A DNA stretch of 64,000 nucleotides. It comes from Aquisalinus luteolus (lineage in GTDB: Bacteria; Pseudomonadota; Alphaproteobacteria; Caulobacterales; Parvularculaceae). Below are positions 1,996-47,683 of the stretch, in pieces. The stretch covers positions 248,001-312,000 of the forward strand of contig NZ_VCJR02000003.1 of NCBI RefSeq assembly GCF_009712425.2. Reading direction: 5' to 3'. Below the pieces are notes generated by a model, which worked only from the letters and a program-made list of their open reading frames with translations, did no database searches and was not told the origin of the DNA. How positions within the stretch are numbered: position 1 is the first letter of the stretch; every line of letters starts with the position of its first letter. The translations under genes were made by a program, and so were the position numbers.

Positions 1996-4900
1996 TATTC
2001 GGCCGGGCTTGGGCGGATACCCAGCTCGCCATCATAATCATCGTCGAGAGCATCGATATCAGGGATTGCCTGATCCTGATTCTCGCCGAAGGCAGCCTGT
2101 TTCTCGCCGGTCCACAGCCCCTTGTAGAAGCGTTTGATGTCGACACCGATCGTGTAGAGCGCCGGAACGAACAGGAGCGTCACGAACAGGGCGAACAGGA
2201 CGCCGAAGGACAGGGCGATGATACATGGCCGCAGGAACTGTGCATCGAACGAATCTTCCAGCAGGATCGGTACAAGACCCACGAAGGTCGTCAGCGATGT
2301 CAGGATGACTGGCCGGAACCGGGTCACGCCGGCCTCGACCAGCGCGGCATAGGCCCCAACGCCTTCACGCCTCAAGCGGTTGATGTAATCGATCAGCACG
2401 AGGTTATCGTTGACGACAACGCCAGCCGCAGCCCCGATCCCGAAGAAGGAGAACATCGCGAAGTTCTCTCCCAGCAGGAAGTGGCCGAAGACCGCGCCCA
2501 TAAAGCCGAACGGGATCGCCGTCATGACGAGGATCGGCTGGGCGTAGGAGGAGAACGCGATGGCAATCAGCATGTACATCGCGAAAAGGGCGATGCCATA
2601 GAGGATGACCAGTTCTATCAGGAACTCCTGCTCCTCCTTGCCGGCGCCACGTTCACGAACCGACGCACCCGGATGATTTTCCTTCCATTGCGGAATGAAG
2701 TTCTCGTTGAAGTCCTTCATCAGGGCTGCCGCATCGACGCCCTCCTGGAACTCCGCGGTTACGACCGTAGAGCGTTTGCGCCCGAAGCGGTCGATCCGCT
2801 TGTAGCTCGGGGCGTAGGAGATTTCGGCCACGGCGGAGAGGGGGATTTCCCGGCCATCGGCCGTCCGGATGCGAACATTCTCGATCGAGTCGAGATTTTC
2901 CCGTGTTTCCTTGGGATAACGCACCATGACGCGGACATCGTCGCCATCTCGCGGCAGGCGCTGGACTTCCTCGCCATAATAGGCCTGGCGCACCTGCTGG
3001 GAAACCTGAGCCAGTGTCAGGCCGAAACGCTCTGCGCCCGGCTTGAGATTGACGCGGATTTCGTCGGTGACAGATTGCAGCCGGTCACGGACGTCATAAA
3101 CGCCCGGATAGCTGCGCAGATAGGCCTTGATGTCTTCCGCGCCAAGGCGCAGGTCGTCGAGCGAATCAGACTCGATACCGAAGTTGAATTCCGGTCCGCT
3201 CTGGTTGATCGTGTAGGAGATGGTGATGTCTTCCGCATCCGGAATTTCACCAATGTAATCCCGGAACTTCTCGGAAATACCCTCCGCACTGATGTCACGG
3301 GATTCGGCATCGGAGATTGTCATATAGGCAACGACGTTCGTGTCGCTGGCCTGGACATAGGTCGAGCCGATCGTGCCATCTCCGTGGATGCCGTCCATCT
3401 CCTCGCGCAGGTCGAAGACAGCATCTTCCAGCCGGTCAAAGACCTGCAGGTTGCGGCTGAACGGCGTTCCTTCCTGCATGGTGATGACCACGCTGACGAA
3501 ACGACCCTCGACATTGGGCATGAAGTTGAAGCCGATCCAGCCCTGGCTGAGCAGCGCAACGGCTACGGCAAAGGCACCGATGAACAGCGTTGCCGTGACA
3601 TAACGAAGTTTGATCGCAAGCTCGATGATCGGGCGATAGATCTTGTCGGCAAACCAGATGATGCCCTCGGAAAAGAAGCTCTGTACCTTGTAGAAGGCAC
3701 TGTTCTTGTTCTGCGGCTTCATGTGCGCAAGGTGCGCCGGCAGGATCATGAAGGATTCGATCAGCGAGAAGGTCAGGGCAAAGATGATCGTGAAGGTGAT
3801 GTGCTTCAGGAATTGCGATGCCTCGCCGGAAACGAAGATGAACGGGAAAAACGCGATCATCGTCGTCAGAACGGCATAGAACACCGGTTTTGCCACAAGC
3901 TGCGTGCCGATCACGGCTGCCGTCAGCCCCTTGCGTCCTCTTTCGACCTGCCTGTGGATGGACTCACCGACCACCAGCGCGTCGTCGACCACGATCCCGA
4001 TGACGAGCAAGAGCCCGAACAGCGACAGCATGTTCAGCGATACACCGACCATCGGCAGGAAGATGAACGCACCGATGAAGGAGATCATGATCCCGATCGT
4101 CACCCAGAAGGAAACCACCGGGCGCAGGAACAGGAACAGCACGATCAGGACGAGGGCAAAACCGAGAAGGGCGTTGGAGGAAACCAGCTCCATCCGGTTC
4201 TTGTAGAGCTCGGAGAAATCGAACCAGATTTCCAGTTCCATGCCATCGACCAGCTCGTCCTGCTTGTCCTCGACATATTGCTCGATGGCCTTGGAGAGCG
4301 CGACCACGTTCGATATTTCAGGGGACTGAACATTGAACATGACGGATTCCTTGCCGTCAGTCAGGCCTTTCTCGTTCGCATCGACGAAGCCGTCGATAAC
4401 TGTCGCAACGTCACCAACGGTGATGTTGGAGCCGTCACGGGCCTGGCGGATGACGATCCGTTCGAACTCTTCTTCCGTATTGGCCAGGTTGCGAACGGCC
4501 AGCTGGACCGTGCCGTTGTCTGTGCGCACGGAACCAGAAGACAGGTTCAGCGAACTCTGGCGAACGGCATTGGCAACATCGCCAAGGGTCAGGCCATAAC
4601 GGCGCAGGGATTCCTCGGAAACCTCAATGGAGACTTCCTCCGGCAGGACACCCCAGACCTCGACCAAAGGCGAGCCGTTGGGCAGGGCCGCCAGCTCATC
4701 GCGCATGTCACGGGCAATACGGAAGAATTCCCGCCGCTCCATGTCGTCCGGTGCCGTCAGGGACAGGAATACCGTCTGCTGATTGAACCGGCTTTCACGC
4801 ACGATCGGCGGGAAAGCGTCCTGCGGGAAAGTCGAGATGCCGTCGACACGGTTTTTCACCTCATTGGTGAATTCCGTCATGTCGGCATCGTCCGTCGCAT

Positions 4901-6484: not shown

Positions 6485-8013
6485 ATGTCCGCTCCTGCGG
6501 CAGTTGCGGCCTCAGACGTACCCGTCGCCTGTTGCCACCATCTTCTGAAAAGTGACGGGGATGCGTCTTCGCCCTCGGCATCCAGGTCACCACTAAATCT
6601 TTCCGGTCCCGCATCGAACGTACCGCCCAGCGCCAGATAGAGGCTGATGCGGTTGTTCAGCCGCTGCTGTCTCGCGGCGATGAACTGGGACTCGGTCTGT
6701 ATCCGGCGTTGTTGTGCACTAATAAGGTTAAAAATGCTGGTCGTGCCGTTCAGATATTGACGTTCGGTCAGGTCCTCGGCGGCAACCGCTTCCTCATAGG
6801 CCAGTTCAAGGGCCTCTTCGCGTGCTGCCAGCAGGGTCTCTGCCGTAATTGCGTTCTCGACATCGGCGAAGGCATTCAGCACTACGCCGGCATAAGAATA
6901 CACGGATGCTTCCGCTGCGGCCTGCTGGGCCTTGGAGTTTGCCAGCAACCTGCCACCCTGGAAAAGCGGCTGGATCAGGCTTGCAGACAGCGAGCCGACC
7001 AGATTGTCCGTGTCGAAAATATCGTCGAATTCCATTGAACCGTTGGAGGCGCTACCTGTCAATCTGAGTGCCGGCAGCAGGGCCTTGCGAGCCTGCGAGG
7101 CCCTGAGGCCGGCAGCTTCAAGACTGTACTCCGCTGAGATGACATCCGGACGACGGTCGAGCATGGATTGGGGTGTGCCGAGGCCGATGACTACGCCTGC
7201 CTCGTTGATAACCGGCTCGATGGCGGGCAGGGCTTCGGCACTGGCCAGTTCCGCTGCGGGATAGCGCCCGAGCAGGACCTCCAGCCCACGGGCTGCTTCT
7301 TTTTCGGCCTGAAGGCGCGATTGCAGCTGCGCCTGGCTGTTGGCAAGCGAGGAGCGGGCAAGGCGGACATCGAGGCTTGAGGAGATACCGCGCTCATAAC
7401 GGCGTTCGGTAATCGTCAGGTTGGCTTCACCGGTCTCCACATCGCGCTCGGACAGTTCCCGCTGAAGGCGGGCTGCGACGAGGCCGTACCAGCTTTGCGC
7501 GACGGCGCCGGCGATGGACAGGCGGGCGGCTGCAAAATCTGCACGGGCTGTTGCTGCGTCTAGATAGGAGGCGCGCGTGGAATCCGTCAGCCGGCCCCAG
7601 ATATCGGCTTCCCAGTCGAGTTGCGCTCCCCAGCTATAGCCAGTCGCATAGACACCGTCGCCATTCGTGCGCTGGACCGAACGACTGGTGCCGAGTGAGC
7701 CTGACAGGGTCGGCAACAGGCTTGCGCGCGTCGCAACCGCCTGCTGGCGAGCGATCTCCACGCGCCGCGAGGCCGCGCCAAGGTCGGTATTGTTGTTCAT
7801 TGCTTCCAGGATGAGCGCGCCAAGCGCATCATCCGACAGATCATTGACCCAGTTCAGCGGTATGGGCTGAGTGCTGGAGACATCTGTCATATCCTGCAGA
7901 GATGCCCACTGGGTGGGAGCCTCTATCGTGTTCAGCGCATCTTCTTTCGAAACCGATGCACAAGCGGCCAGCAAACCAAAGACTGACAAGGCTGCCGTAC
8001 GGCGTAACTTCAT
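6481..8013 (-). CDS. Outer-membrane efflux lipoprotein (NodT/TolC family), 510 aa
   Basis: First gene of the efflux operon. The N-terminus is a lipoprotein signal with lipobox LLAAC and lipidated Cys18. Two repeats of the long-helix/strand unit of the outer-membrane factor family follow: the first includes LGAASRRVEIARQQAVATRA, the second SMLDRRPDVISAEYSLEAAG, a very typical motif of NodT proteins. It forms the exit duct for the adaptor and pump downstream. Two palindromic or paired motifs lie in the upstream gap (see 8096-8137). Confidence 0.93.
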   Translation of the reverse strand: MKLRRTAALSVFGLLAACASVSKEDALNTIEAPTQWASLQDMTDVSSTQPIPLNWVNDLSDDALGALILEAMNNNTDLGAASRRVEIARQQAVATRASLLPTLSGSLGTSRSVQRTNGDGVYATGYSWGAQLDWEADIWGRLTDSTRASYLDAATARADFAAARLSIAGAVAQSWYGLVAARLQRELSERDVETGEANLTITERRYERGISSSLDVRLARSSLANSQAQLQSRLQAEKEAARGLEVLLGRYPAAELASAEALPAIEPVINEAGVVIGLGTPQSMLDRRPDVISAEYSLEAAGLRASQARKALLPALRLTGSASNGSMEFDDIFDTDNLVGSLSASLIQPLFQGGRLLANSKAQQAAAEASVYSYAGVVLNAFADVENAITAETLLAAREEALELAYEEAVAAEDLTERQYLNGTTSIFNLISAQQRRIQTESQFIAARQQRLNNRISLYLALGGTFDAGPERFSGDLDAEGEDASPSLFRRWWQQATGTSEAATAAGADI

Positions 8014-44214: not shown

Positions 44215-44412
44215 ATGGACTACGTTGAATTCATGAGAGCGCTTGCATGGAGCGGATGGGGCCTTGCGTCGTTCACGTTCGGGCTGATGTTCGCGCTTCT
44301 TTTCGCCATGGCCTGCAAGGGGTTGGTAAAGGCAATTCTGTTTGGCGATCCGATCGATATCGCTGTGGACAAAAAACTTCGCAAAATCGCCAAGGAGGAC
44401 ACCCCCGAATGA
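44215..44412 (+). CDS. Small membrane protein, 65 aa
   Basis: FMRALAWSGWGLASFTFGLM continues into a hydrophobic helix and ends in charged DIAVDKKLRKIAKEDTPE. Overlaps the next start by 4 bases. Function unknown. Confidence 0.6.
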   Translation: MDYVEFMRALAWSGWGLASFTFGLMFALLFAMACKGLVKAILFGDPIDIAVDKKLRKIAKEDTPE

Positions 44413-44948
44413 CCAACCAACCGGGCAGGGAAGGGCAGAAGGCAATCCTCATTGCTGAAATGCTCCACCAAGGCCGAGCAATGCTCTTGGCCGAGGATCA
44501 CGACACGCCGTCTGACGAAGAGATTGTCTGGCGGCTGTTGCAGGAAGCAGCAGAGACGCAACGGGCAATCCGGGGCGTCGGCCCTCGATACCAGAACAAG
44601 CACGGCGTCGATTACTTTCACTCGCCTGCCGAGATATTTGGCACTGAGGTGGAAATGTCTGCCGACAACATCCAGTACCCGCCCCAGATCATCCGGGTTG
44701 CCTCAAAGCAGGCTCTAGATCGCTACATGGAGGTGATGACCTGGTTCACCTACATCCACACAGGCCGGAACGAGCGCCGCTCCCGCAAGGCCATGCTTGC
44801 GCTTGCAAACGGGTGCACTCTGCAGAGGGTTGCAGACATGTGCGGGTACGGATCGAGGGCGGGCGTGAAGAACATGAAAGATCGTGCGCTTACCGAAATA
44901 GCCCAGCGTTTGCGCCGGATGATGTTAGCAAAAAAGATTGCGGCCTAG
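44409..44948 (+). CDS. DUF6362-like phage protein with HTH, 179 aa
   Basis: N-terminal helical part, then RNERRSRKAMLALANGCTLQ and RVADMCGYGSRAGVKNMKDR, a helix-turn-helix in the C-terminal half. Proteins of this type stand between replication and packaging genes in alphaproteobacterial prophages and may regulate late genes; by position and fold only. I use ATG44409, which overlaps the preceding stop. Confidence 0.68.
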   Translation: MTNQPGREGQKAILIAEMLHQGRAMLLAEDHDTPSDEEIVWRLLQEAAETQRAIRGVGPRYQNKHGVDYFHSPAEIFGTEVEMSADNIQYPPQIIRVASKQALDRYMEVMTWFTYIHTGRNERRSRKAMLALANGCTLQRVADMCGYGSRAGVKNMKDRALTEIAQRLRRMMLAKKIAA

Positions 44949-45392
44949 GGTGACATAGCTAACGGAAACGGGGTATAAGGATTGTACGCTGCGGGCTAGC
45001 CTTGCAGCGCCGCAAAGTACCCGGCCCGCGCGGGAGTAAGCAGCGGTTGTCAGTATAGACCTGACCTATGCCCGCCCCCAGCCAGCGTGTTATAAGATCA
45101 ATGGCTGATGGAGATTATGGCTGGGATCGCATTAGCGAGTGATGCGGGTGAGAGTCCCAAAACTAGCCTTTCCATTCAGGTTCCGGTCCGACCGGAACAG
45201 GTGCAAGTCCTGAGATGGCCCGACCAGAATTGGCGGGTGCCCCTTTCCGCAAGGGGATTAAACGGGAAATGCAGCCCGGCCCGCCAGTTACCCGATGCTT
45301 TCCGGGCAATGAAAGACGAGACGGGGCGTCCGGGGAGCCGTCTATAAGCTAAAAGCCGGAGCCAATACCAACACCAGCCATGGAGGGCTGAG
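44949..45392 (+). ncRNA. Structured non-coding region, candidate large RNA
   Basis: 444 bases without a credible protein gene but with many strong hairpins, all read on the plus strand: CCCAGCCA/TGGCTGGG (45077-45084 with 45118-45125), GTTCCGGT-N3-ACCGGAAC (45180-45198), TGGCGGG/CCCGCCA (45231-45237 with 45280-45286) enclosing CCCCTT/AAGGGG (45240-45256), and two small hairpins with seven-base loops of the same type: GGG-TGAGAGT-CCC (45146-45158) and CAGG-TGCAAGT-CCTG (45198-45212). Loops of form TGNRAGT fit T-loop folds known from RNase P, cobalamin riboswitches and group II introns; I see no domain V, B12 box or RNase P core. It ends just before a small gene and a tnpB. Confidence 0.5.
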
Positions 45393-45590
45393 ATGAGCCG
45401 CTGGCAAGCAGAAATCACCTACCGGTCAGACAACGGCCCGATCAACGGTGTTATTCATCACCTCGAAGAGCTTGAAGACCTGCAAGACATCATCGAGCGC
45501 GGCCCGCATTGGGATGCTTTGATCGACATCAGGATCACCCGCATTGGCGCTGATGAAAAGATGACTGTCGAGTCCGCAGCTCTGGCATAG
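45393..45590 (+). CDS. Small phage protein, 65 aa
   Basis: GPINGVIHHLEELEDLQDII followed by ERGPHWDALIDIRITRI: an acidic helix and a strand, a sequence type found in small proteins of mobile elements. GGAGGG site before ATG45393. It separates the structured region from tnpB. Confidence 0.65.
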   Translation: MSRWQAEITYRSDNGPINGVIHHLEELEDLQDIIERGPHWDALIDIRITRIGADEKMTVESAALA

Positions 45591-45619
45591 CCACCTGCAT
45601 TACAGAGTTCGAAGCTGGT

Positions 45620-46696
45620 ATGTCTTACATAACCTACAAGTATCGAATTAAGGACGCGACATCGGGCAAGTGGCTTGATCGCCATGCAACAGCCTGCAAT
45701 CAAGTGTGGAACTTTTGTTGCAACACACAAAGACAAGCCGAGCTTAGGCGGTACGGAGACAGGGGCCACTTTTGGCCGTCTGCTTTTGACCTGATCAACC
45801 TTACTGCTGGCAGTGGTAAAATGCTCGGTCTGCATTCCGACACCGTGAGCGCATTGTGCAGACGGTTTGAGCAGAACCGAGACACGCAGGAGCGTTCGCC
45901 GCAGTTCCGCAAAAGCTTTGGGCCTCGCCGGTCTTTGGGTTGGGTCCCAATCACCAAAAGAGCCCTGAAAATTTGCGGCGATGAGGTCGTTTATCTGAAG
46001 CGAAGGTTTAAACTTTGGCGTTCCCGAGACATTTCCGGTGAGTTTAAAGCGGGCTCTTTTACCCAGGACGCGAGAGGCAGATGGTATGTGTCTCTTGTCT
46101 GTAAAGTTGAGGACGGATTGGCCAGAAAAGACGGCTGCGTCGGCATTGACCTTGGTCTAAGGAACTTAGCAATAACAAGCGACGCGGAAAAGATATCGGC
46201 CCCGAGGCTGTTCCGTCGCTATGAGCGCAAGCTTGGCGACGCGCAACGGGCCGGGAACAAGAGGCGGGCGAGGGCTATTCATGCTAAAATCGCGAATGCC
46301 CGGCGAGATTACCTACACAAAGAATCTACCCGCTTAGCGGATAACTATTCTTTTATTGCTGTCGGCGACGTTAAGGCTGCACAGCTCGCAAGAACCAGGA
46401 TGGCTAAGTCCATAATGGATGCGGGATGGGCGCTGTTTCGGGATATGTTGCGGTATAAGGCTGCCAGAAGGCGGGCCGTATATGTTGATGTCGATGAGCG
46501 GTATACTTCCCAAATGTGCTCGGGCTGTGGGGTTGTTCCCGACAGTAGTCCGAAAGGTATGGGCGCACTTGGAATGAGGCGCTGGGATTGTTGTGAGTGT
46601 GGTGCGTCACATGATCGTGACGTAAACGCCGCCAAGAACATCCTTCGCGCCGGGCTGGAGTGCCAGCCTCCTGCTGAGGAAATCCTCGCCGCATAG
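45620..46696 (+). CDS. tnpB: TnpB (IS200/IS605 family RNA-guided nuclease) with altered RuvC-II site, 358 aa
   Basis: Relative of the OMEGA nucleases and Cas12. RuvC-I Asp177 in CVGIDLGLRNLA, RuvC-III in ASHDRDVNAAKNILR (Asp332/Asp334), and a zinc ribbon Cys300, Cys303, Cys324, Cys327 are intact, as is the N-terminal wedge segment NQVWNFCCNTQ. At the RuvC-II position the usual Glu (in I..E.L) is Gly249-Asp250 in FIAVGDVKAAQL. A Glu at 293 (VDVDERYTSQMC) could replace it, as in TnpB groups with a moved catalytic residue. No tnpA or clear transposon ends, so it may be domesticated by the phage. Confidence 0.85.
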   Translation: MSYITYKYRIKDATSGKWLDRHATACNQVWNFCCNTQRQAELRRYGDRGHFWPSAFDLINLTAGSGKMLGLHSDTVSALCRRFEQNRDTQERSPQFRKSFGPRRSLGWVPITKRALKICGDEVVYLKRRFKLWRSRDISGEFKAGSFTQDARGRWYVSLVCKVEDGLARKDGCVGIDLGLRNLAITSDAEKISAPRLFRRYERKLGDAQRAGNKRRARAIHAKIANARRDYLHKESTRLADNYSFIAVGDVKAAQLARTRMAKSIMDAGWALFRDMLRYKAARRRAVYVDVDERYTSQMCSGCGVVPDSSPKGMGALGMRRWDCCECGASHDRDVNAAKNILRAGLECQPPAEEILAA

Positions 46697-46740
46697 CGGC
46701 TTGGAAGGCATTAAAACAGAGCCGGGGTTTTATGCTCCGG
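46653..46740 (+). ncRNA. Candidate omega RNA scaffold at the tnpB 3' end
   Basis: Three tandem hairpins overlap the end of tnpB: GGCTGG/CCAGCC (46653-46668), GAGGA/TCCTC (46676-46687) and GCCGC/GCGGC (46688-46700, across the stop codon), then GAGC/GCTC (46719-46737). Guide RNAs of this family are encoded at exactly this place, with the guide following the scaffold. The boundary with the guide cannot be fixed here. 46741-46887 holds no gene that I can support. Confidence 0.5.
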
Positions 46741-46887
46741 TTGTTATGAGATCCTCAATTCCAATCCCCCGTCAGTGTGAGGCGTCGCCACAGGTTCCTC
46801 TCTCACCTACCGCAAAGCGCTCGCCCGCTGACGGGGTACATCATTCAGGAGGCTATGAGCCATGATCCGTGAGTTTTACTTCTAGCC

Positions 46888-47058
46888 ATGACCGGTAAGC
46901 AAGAAGCGCCGGTATCCCGGGATGACATTAAGCCCATGCCAACGCCGCAGCGAGGCTTGACCATGCTTGAGGCGTTCATAGGGCTGGGCATGGCTTACCG
47001 CGACGCGGGCGCTCAGATGCTCGCAGGGCAAGCAGCACGATATCGCCATGACCGATAA
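46888..47058 (+). CDS. Small phage protein, 56 aa
   Basis: MTGKQEAPVSRDDIKPMPTP then RGLTMLEAFIGLGMAYRDAG; it ends 11 bases inside the metallopeptidase-like gene. The translational overlap is the main support; no family recognised. Confidence 0.5.
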   Translation: MTGKQEAPVSRDDIKPMPTPQRGLTMLEAFIGLGMAYRDAGAQMLAGQAARYRHDR

Positions 47059-47683
47059 GTCCAAAGGCGGTAGGCCGAGGCCGACTGGCGTGATCCTGCA
47101 GCATGAGGACCATTTCGAGCCTTGTCGAGAGCTTGCCGATTGGGCGCGTGAGACGTTTATCGAACCCGGCGGCACGCTGGAAAACGAAGACCACGAGCAC
47201 CTGCAGCACGCTTCGATAGGCTTCCTCTGGACTAACGTCGCCAACGCCAAGAAGGGCAGGCGCATTGTCGGGCAGGCGGAACCCGGAAAGCCCATGGGCA
47301 TGGGCGGCAAGTGGGGCAAGGCCAGACAGGAATACCAGGTCACGCAGTGGTTCGGGGAAGTACCTGATTTCATCATCACGCTGGATGCCAATTACGCCAG
47401 CCAGTGCAGCGATGCTGAGTTCTGCGCTCTCGTAGAGCATGAGCTTTATCACTGCGCTCAGGAGAAGGATGAATTCGGCGCTCCGAGGTTCAATCAGCAA
47501 ACCGGGCTGCCTGTCTTCGGTATGAGGGGGCACGACATCGAGGAATTCATCGGAGTGGTCCGCAGATACGGAGCCGAGGCAACCCACATTCAAGAACTCA
47601 TTCAAGCAGCAAAGGAAGGCCCGACCATAGCGCCGGCGAACATTGCCCAGTCATGCGGCACATGTCTCGCGAGGGCGGCTTAG
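47048..47683 (+). CDS. Putative phage metallopeptidase, 211 aa
   Basis: The HExxH zinc motif is in LVEHELYHCAQEKDEFGAP, with a downstream GHDIEEFIGVVRRYG that can give a further ligand. This is the type called phage metallopeptidase domain in many siphovirus genomes; its role is unknown. It stands before the terminase genes. Confidence 0.78.
   Translation: MTDKSKGGRPRPTGVILQHEDHFEPCRELADWARETFIEPGGTLENEDHEHLQHASIGFLWTNVANAKKGRRIVGQAEPGKPMGMGGKWGKARQEYQVTQWFGEVPDFIITLDANYASQCSDAEFCALVEHELYHCAQEKDEFGAPRFNQQTGLPVFGMRGHDIEEFIGVVRRYGAEATHIQELIQAAKEGPTIAPANIAQSCGTCLARAA

Follow-up and report, generated by a model that had tools for sequence, protein, structure and literature searches.

Twin T-loop hairpins lie close together in a non-coding gap of an Aquisalinus luteolus prophage

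Results

A non-coding gap among prophage genes

Tightly packed, same-strand phage genes in the genome of Aquisalinus luteolus are interrupted by 444 non-coding bases, which raises the question of whether this gap encodes a structured RNA. The window analyzed is the whole 64,000-nt stretch at positions 248,001–312,000 of contig NZ_VCJR02000003.1 (genome, 3.68 Mb), and all coordinates refer to it. The neighbors of the gap are prophage genes, and those matched to a family all lie on the plus strand. The order before the gap is DNA methyltransferase, primosomal protein, and the DUF6362-like gene (44409–44948) that flanks it on the 5' side. The 3' flank is a 65-aa gene, with TnpB and packaging genes further downstream; the order is 65-aa gene, TnpB (45620–46696), phage metallopeptidase, DUF2280 protein, large terminase subunit, and portal protein. 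Gene annotation bears out the initial annotation, which had placed the gap just before a small gene and a TnpB gene. The two features at issue are as follows.

44949..45392, plus strand (assigned from the T-loops and the flanking genes), candidate structured RNA in a non-coding gap
45393..45590, plus strand, 65-aa gene directly 3' of the gap, codon score 0.254

The initial annotation saw no credible gene in 44949–45392. Four ORFs of at least 40 aa lie wholly or mostly inside the gap, and their codon scores (−0.018 to −0.171, none positive) agree with that reading as far as a crude codon model goes. The model was trained on 44 ORFs of the window; it gives TnpB, a real gene, only 0.017 and some minus-strand shadow ORFs more than 0.15. 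The 65-aa gene has the second highest score among those listed.

The DUF6362 match of gene 44409–44948 falls under the Pfam cut-off, and the structure prediction for the protein upstream of the gap (pLDDT 40.5) is too low for use. A role of the DUF6362-like protein in late regulation is no more than a guess, based on the place of its gene and a helix-turn-helix-like stretch seen by eye. The 65-aa gene is without a family in Pfam, PHROGs, and NCBIfam. A single-sequence structure model of its product is fair (pLDDT 73.4). In the PDB, this model comes closest to p56 uracil-DNA glycosylase inhibitors of phages (E 0.013, probability 1.00, TM 0.78 by target), with nothing at E ≤0.001. On this model, the 65-aa protein may be a p56-like DNA mimic.

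Two T-loop hairpins in the gap

Two hairpins with matching loops, TGAGAGT and TGCAAGT, had been noticed in the gap. Both are present, and both are consensus T-loops.

45146..45158, plus strand, T-loop hairpin 1, GGG-TGAGAGT-CCC, 3-bp stem, loop TGAGAGT at 45149–45155
45198..45212, plus strand, T-loop hairpin 2, CAGG-TGCAAGT-CCTG, 4-bp stem, loop TGCAAGT at 45202–45208

In the T-loop consensus, as set out in the available text of PMC2258182, a U-A pair closes a GNR triloop and two 3' bases are bulged. The two hairpins conform to this consensus (U-GNR-A-NN) with Watson-Crick closing pairs. The same text describes the double T-loop as a tertiary module common to AdoCbl and FMN riboswitches (PMC2258182), which upholds the initial idea that paired T-loops are a feature of folded RNAs. 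The first base of T-loop hairpin 2 also belongs to the preceding hairpin (45180..45198). The bases after T-loop 2 (CTGAGATGGCCCG, 45210–45222) nearly recur at the start of the 65-aa gene (CTGAGATGAGCCG, 45388–45400); short repeats in two copies such as these are frequently due to chance.

T-loop hairpins were counted by requiring a consensus loop and at least three Watson-Crick stem pairs. Across the 64 kb, the census counted one minus-strand hairpin and two plus-strand hairpins, and the gap holds both of the latter. This total of 3 is not above the mean of 3.8 T-loop hairpins in 60 shuffles of the whole window, which held no pair within 70 nt. The window therefore has an ordinary count of T-loop hairpins, and only the closeness of the two is unusual. 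The pattern tested was taken from the finding itself, so the figures are post hoc and optimistic: dinucleotide shuffling of the gap, repeated 5000 times, never gave two or more T-loop hairpins, and among 385 genomes of the class only this one has the twin T-loop pattern, with one match for a backward control pattern. The plain string GGTGNNAGTCC has 2 occurrences compared to 0.44 expected, and at least 2 were seen in 8 of 100 shuffles. A census of 1.28 Mb of other loci (L087–L234), among them viral contigs with a related metallopeptidase (80) or a related TnpB (64), contained a single close pair, which is A+T-rich and lies in L170.

Predicted fold and transcription signals

The initial annotation had taken the strong stems of the gap as a whole to be special, and folding energies do not support this. 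The whole gap has a z of −1.58 on the plus strand (8 of 100 shuffles fold as well) and −1.32 on the minus strand (9 of 100). The minimum among 150-nt windows in the gap is −1.96 (at 45176), compared to 5% of 320 windows below −2.52. When pairing is restricted to spans of 50 nt, the z of the plus strand is −1.03 (15 of 100 shuffles) and that of the minus strand is better, at −2.02 (3 of 100). The core at 45103–45292 (190 nt, plus strand) has a z of −2.55 with 0 of 100 shuffles as low, a value that sits between the 5th (−2.64) and 10th (−1.93) percentiles of 200 background windows. The energy model predicts the following elements.

44969–44987 with 45201–45222, plus strand, long-range helix, exclusive with T-loop 2, pair probabilities 0.80–0.94
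45108..45175, plus strand, arm enclosing T-loop 1, 7-bp closing helix 45108–45114/45169–45175, mean probability 0.93
45180..45198, plus strand, 8-bp hairpin between both T-loops, helix 45180–45187/45191–45198, mean probability 0.97
45228..45289, plus strand, three-way junction with two inner hairpins, 11-bp closing helix 45228–45238/45279–45289, mean probability 0.98 (inner helices, 0.95 and 0.99)
45375..45390, plus strand, hairpin over the likely ribosome-binding site of the 65-aa gene (site assigned by eye), mean probability 0.98

Other pairings are preferred over both T-loops in the energy model. The stem of T-loop 1 has a pair probability of about 0.28 in the full gap. That of T-loop 2 is about 0.01 because 44978–44987 pairs with its bases, and its three inner pairs reach 0.83–0.90 once 45103–45212 is folded alone. 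Energy models are ignorant of T-loop tertiary contacts; therefore, the low T-loop probabilities are a warning and not a refutation. The predicted pairings suggest two mutually exclusive forms of the gap RNA.

A search of the gap for terminator-like sites gave none on the plus strand and three on the minus strand. Lacking a plus-strand site, a transcript would continue into the 65-aa gene. Sigma-70-like promoters numbered 0 in 44300–47100 compared to 1.5 expected from shuffles, a count to be read knowing that host promoters may not fit the pattern. With neither a promoter nor a plus-strand terminator in the gap, read-through of a leader is more natural than a free plus-strand RNA.

Comparison with known RNA families

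The initial annotation could not match the gap to a known family, and a cmscan search with 4227 Rfam families agrees, with nothing in the gap at gathering scores. A permissive Rfam search of 2.3 kb aligned 45218–45298 with the cobalamin riboswitch (RF00174; 26.2 bits, E 3.8e-4), which coincides with the predicted three-way junction at 45228..45289. This candidate was rejected. The score is below the gathering score of 31.5, the middle of the model is skipped, and narrowing the search lowers the match to 13.5 bits (E 0.16). A whole-genome cobalamin search (E ≤1) gave a true host riboswitch at 130.8 bits and one weak place at 20.3 bits. The gap is not among the matches listed genome-wide, where 150 of 247 candidates were scored and the gap may have been filtered out. 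There is no cobalamin gene among the annotated neighbors of the gap. The gap resembles RF00174 in that the AdoCbl riboswitch has a double T-loop module, according to the available text of PMC2258182, and in that a stem, a hairpin, and a UUAAACGGGAA stretch at 45226–45291 align to the 5' part of the model. It differs in that both T-loops of the gap precede the matching part instead of following it.

The group II intron domain I model (group-II-D1D4-4, RF02003) opens with a GGGUGaAAGUCCC hairpin that resembles T-loop 1, but the match is at noise level (9.4 bits, E 6). Group II domain V was not matched in the window at the gathering score or in 44700–47000 at E ≤5, and there is no reverse transcriptase among the neighboring proteins scanned. 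We treat the cobalamin and group II likenesses as a shared building block and not as membership. GOLLD and ROOL are large phage-associated RNAs, and the gap is like them in being a large non-coding candidate in a phage. Group I intron, GOLLD, and ROOL were all missing from the Rfam matches at E ≤5 in 44700–47000. The string GGTGCAAGTCC, which recalls a tRNA T-arm, also occurs in the tRNA array of contig L035. ARAGORN called two tRNAs in the window but no tRNA or tmRNA in the gap, which is unlike a tRNA. The initial interpretation is thus supported in part. The twin T-loops are real and unusually close, but one large structured RNA across all 444 bases is no more than a candidate, with ordinary folding energy, no homologue, and no match to a large-RNA family.

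Searches for relatives of the gap

Blastn of 44900–45620 in phages gave only one 28-base match, within the 65-aa gene, and blastn of the gap in plasmids gave no match. Searching 100 relatives and 385 genomes of the class returned the gap itself and one short match each (L002 and L235); both were rejected since they overlap long ORFs. A covariance model of the core 45103–45292, R1, was built from this one sequence and therefore has a short reach. R1 gave nothing above noise except the window in sets of 71 and 96 loci, covering 55 of 81 twin-pattern, 51 of 80 metallopeptidase, and 41 of 64 TnpB loci. Only the window scored above noise in 61 and 200 genomes (overlapping sets; stricter filters over 40 genomes). 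No homologue was found by DNA or by covariance model, and the gap therefore offers no covariation in support of its predicted helices. A conserved protein frame across the gap, which the initial annotation had named as a refutation, was not seen, an outcome of little weight when there are no homologues to compare.

The neighboring proteins were also used as guides. Protein searches with the 179-aa gene and the 65-aa gene, and with the portal protein in genome contigs, returned nothing beyond the genome itself and a chance match (L003). The DUF6362 family was matched in 15 of 200 genomes of the order, once over the cut-off, and R1 was at noise in the three loci opened. The large terminase has relatives in 1322 phage records. 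A pattern of a T-loop followed by TTAAANGGGAA gave four stretches that were rejected as coding-looking by eye. A literature search over titles and the starts of abstracts returned no multi-T-loop phage RNA, which says little.

Stretches with several T-loops in viral contigs

The twin T-loop pattern occurs in 81 stretches of viral contigs (L004–L084). Most of those viewed by eye, a part of the 81, were rejected as collagen-like or CRISPR-like repeats or as coding, and L035 is a tRNA array. Five of the matches listed look non-coding by eye (L017, L019, L025, L031, and L075) and carry 2 to about 5 T-loop arms. ORF listings cover three of the five, namely L017, L031, and L075. Rfam searches of these five gave only a tRNA in L019 and noise. 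Four were folded, and none is better than its shuffles (z −0.77 for L017, −1.25 for L025, 0.60 for L019, and −0.73 for L075). The best R1 score among viral contigs is 11.5 bits (E 0.92), in L031. A triple T-loop pattern returned L017 and three repeat-like stretches. The five stretches are leads, not homologues.

L031 has about five T-loop-like arms in about 380 bases (4090–4470, plus strand), two of them identical with a hairpin between. A 188-aa open frame runs through this stretch, which may be coding. L017 has three T-loop arms at 3440–4015 (minus strand), with no long ORF on the same strand and no blastn match in phages. In L075, two T-loop arms lie within a 10-bp closing stem at 6925–7060 (minus strand), in a stretch that precedes a portal-like gene and is followed by a strong hairpin; ORFs overlap it, and it may be coding. 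One T-loop string is common to L031 and L075 and was found only there. The L019 stretch (4060–4208, plus strand) follows a tRNA-Thr gene and has an acceptor-like closing stem, an encoded CCA, and two T-loop arms; ARAGORN made no tRNA call at 4060–4208.

The TnpB neighborhood

TnpB (45620–46696) matches NCBIfam guided_TnpB at 200.5 bits. The protein has Gly-Asp at the presumed RuvC-II position, a site where we would expect the RuvC-II glutamate. Gly-Asn or Gly-Asp is found in 19 of the 20 relatives displayed, and the remaining one (L193) is unreadable in that frame. The Gly-Asp looks like a lineage trait.

The place of an omega RNA is the 3' end of tnpB. The gap shares with the omega RNA setting a nearby TnpB gene, but it lies 5' of tnpB with a gene between. 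This intervening 65-aa gene places the gap probably outside the TnpB element. Around tnpB, plus-strand structure is strongest at the 3' end of the gene (46601–46750, z −4.17), where an omega RNA would be expected. The census found no T-loop pair in 64 loci with a related TnpB. Upstream DNA, viewed by eye for 20 of the 64, is unlike the window, and a few of these sequences are alike among themselves. TnpB is probably an unrelated neighbor of the gap, and the adjacency looks incidental.

Discussion

The observation that holds is of twin T-loops, unusually close to one another, in a non-coding prophage gap; that they belong to a large folded RNA is plausible but unproven. Our main reading, to which we assign a probability of about 0.47, is that the gap encodes a structured, mostly cis-acting prophage RNA, an orphan leader. 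It is supported by the gap shuffles (0 of 5000), the twin pattern in 1 of 385 genomes, the presence of 444 non-coding bases amid tightly packed same-strand phage genes, the core z of −2.55, the lack of a plus-strand terminator, and the hairpin at 45375–45390. Counting against it are the ordinary energy of the gap, the disfavored T-loops, the lack of a promoter, the three minus-strand terminators, the lack of a homologue, and a T-loop total of 3 versus 3.8.

The leader would work as follows. The gap would be transcribed from the plus strand ahead of the 65-aa gene and the packaging genes. Within the core 45103–45292, both T-loops would make docking contacts elsewhere in the RNA and thereby hold it in a compact shape. 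T-loop 2 shares bases with the predicted helix 44969–44987/45201–45222, and on the energy model the RNA may alternate between two forms; these forms and the helices themselves are predictions of that model. Switching between the forms could have a cis effect on read-through or translation of the downstream genes. The put-type antitermination leaders of HK022 are structured leaders ahead of phage genes, and by analogy the gap would be like them in working only.

Chance hairpins in a site that does not act as RNA are nearly as likely as a structured leader RNA. The gap would then be ordinary intergenic phage DNA, for example promoter DNA, a site for packaging or replication, or what is left of a decayed gene, whose G+C-rich stems and coincidental T-loop strings were picked out by a pattern-seeking reader. 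Such DNA would be expected to give the folding energies seen here (z −1.58 and −1.32 for the gap, and 150-nt windows no lower than −1.96 against a 5% cut of −2.52), disfavored T-loop stems, a T-loop total that is not raised, and no homologue. It accounts poorly for the closeness of the pair, which was matched in none of the 5000 gap shuffles, in none of the 60 window shuffles, and in no genome but this one among 385. A broader proposal makes the gap a member of an undescribed kind of phage RNA in which repeated T-loop arms alternate with short G+C-rich hairpins. L017 and L031 would be further members, perhaps with L075, L025, and L019, all diverged past sequence recognition. We consider this kinship unlikely.

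The size of the gap, its multiple predicted helices, and the several T-loop arms in the non-coding-looking stretches of L017 and L031 would also suit a large trans-acting phage RNA comparable to GOLLD or ROOL, in which T-loops would serve as joints and which would be either processed out of the late transcript or driven by a promoter of its own. This is improbable given that no large-RNA family of Rfam matches at gathering scores or at E ≤5, that the gap has no promoter-like or plus-strand terminator-like site, and that R1 stays at noise in those viral contigs (best 11.5 bits, L031). Least probable is that the gap derives from a known RNA, as a remnant or in rearranged form, whether from a cobalamin riboswitch or from the 5' portion of a group II intron. 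The cobalamin match at 45218–45298 (26.2 bits, E 3.8e-4) and the likeness of T-loop 1 to the start of group-II-D1D4-4 (9.4 bits, E 6) point that way. Against them stand a cobalamin score below 31.5 with the middle skipped, its fall to 13.5 bits in the narrower search, its absence from the genome-wide matches listed, the lack of a domain V or group I match, and the lack of a blastn match in phages or plasmids.

At present, the structured leader is an orphan candidate whose one strong signal is at the level of the motif. Should the gap be transcribed into a folded RNA, the phage would have an RNA built with the double T-loop module and lacking any curated relative, and a testable cis-regulatory switch would stand before the packaging operon.
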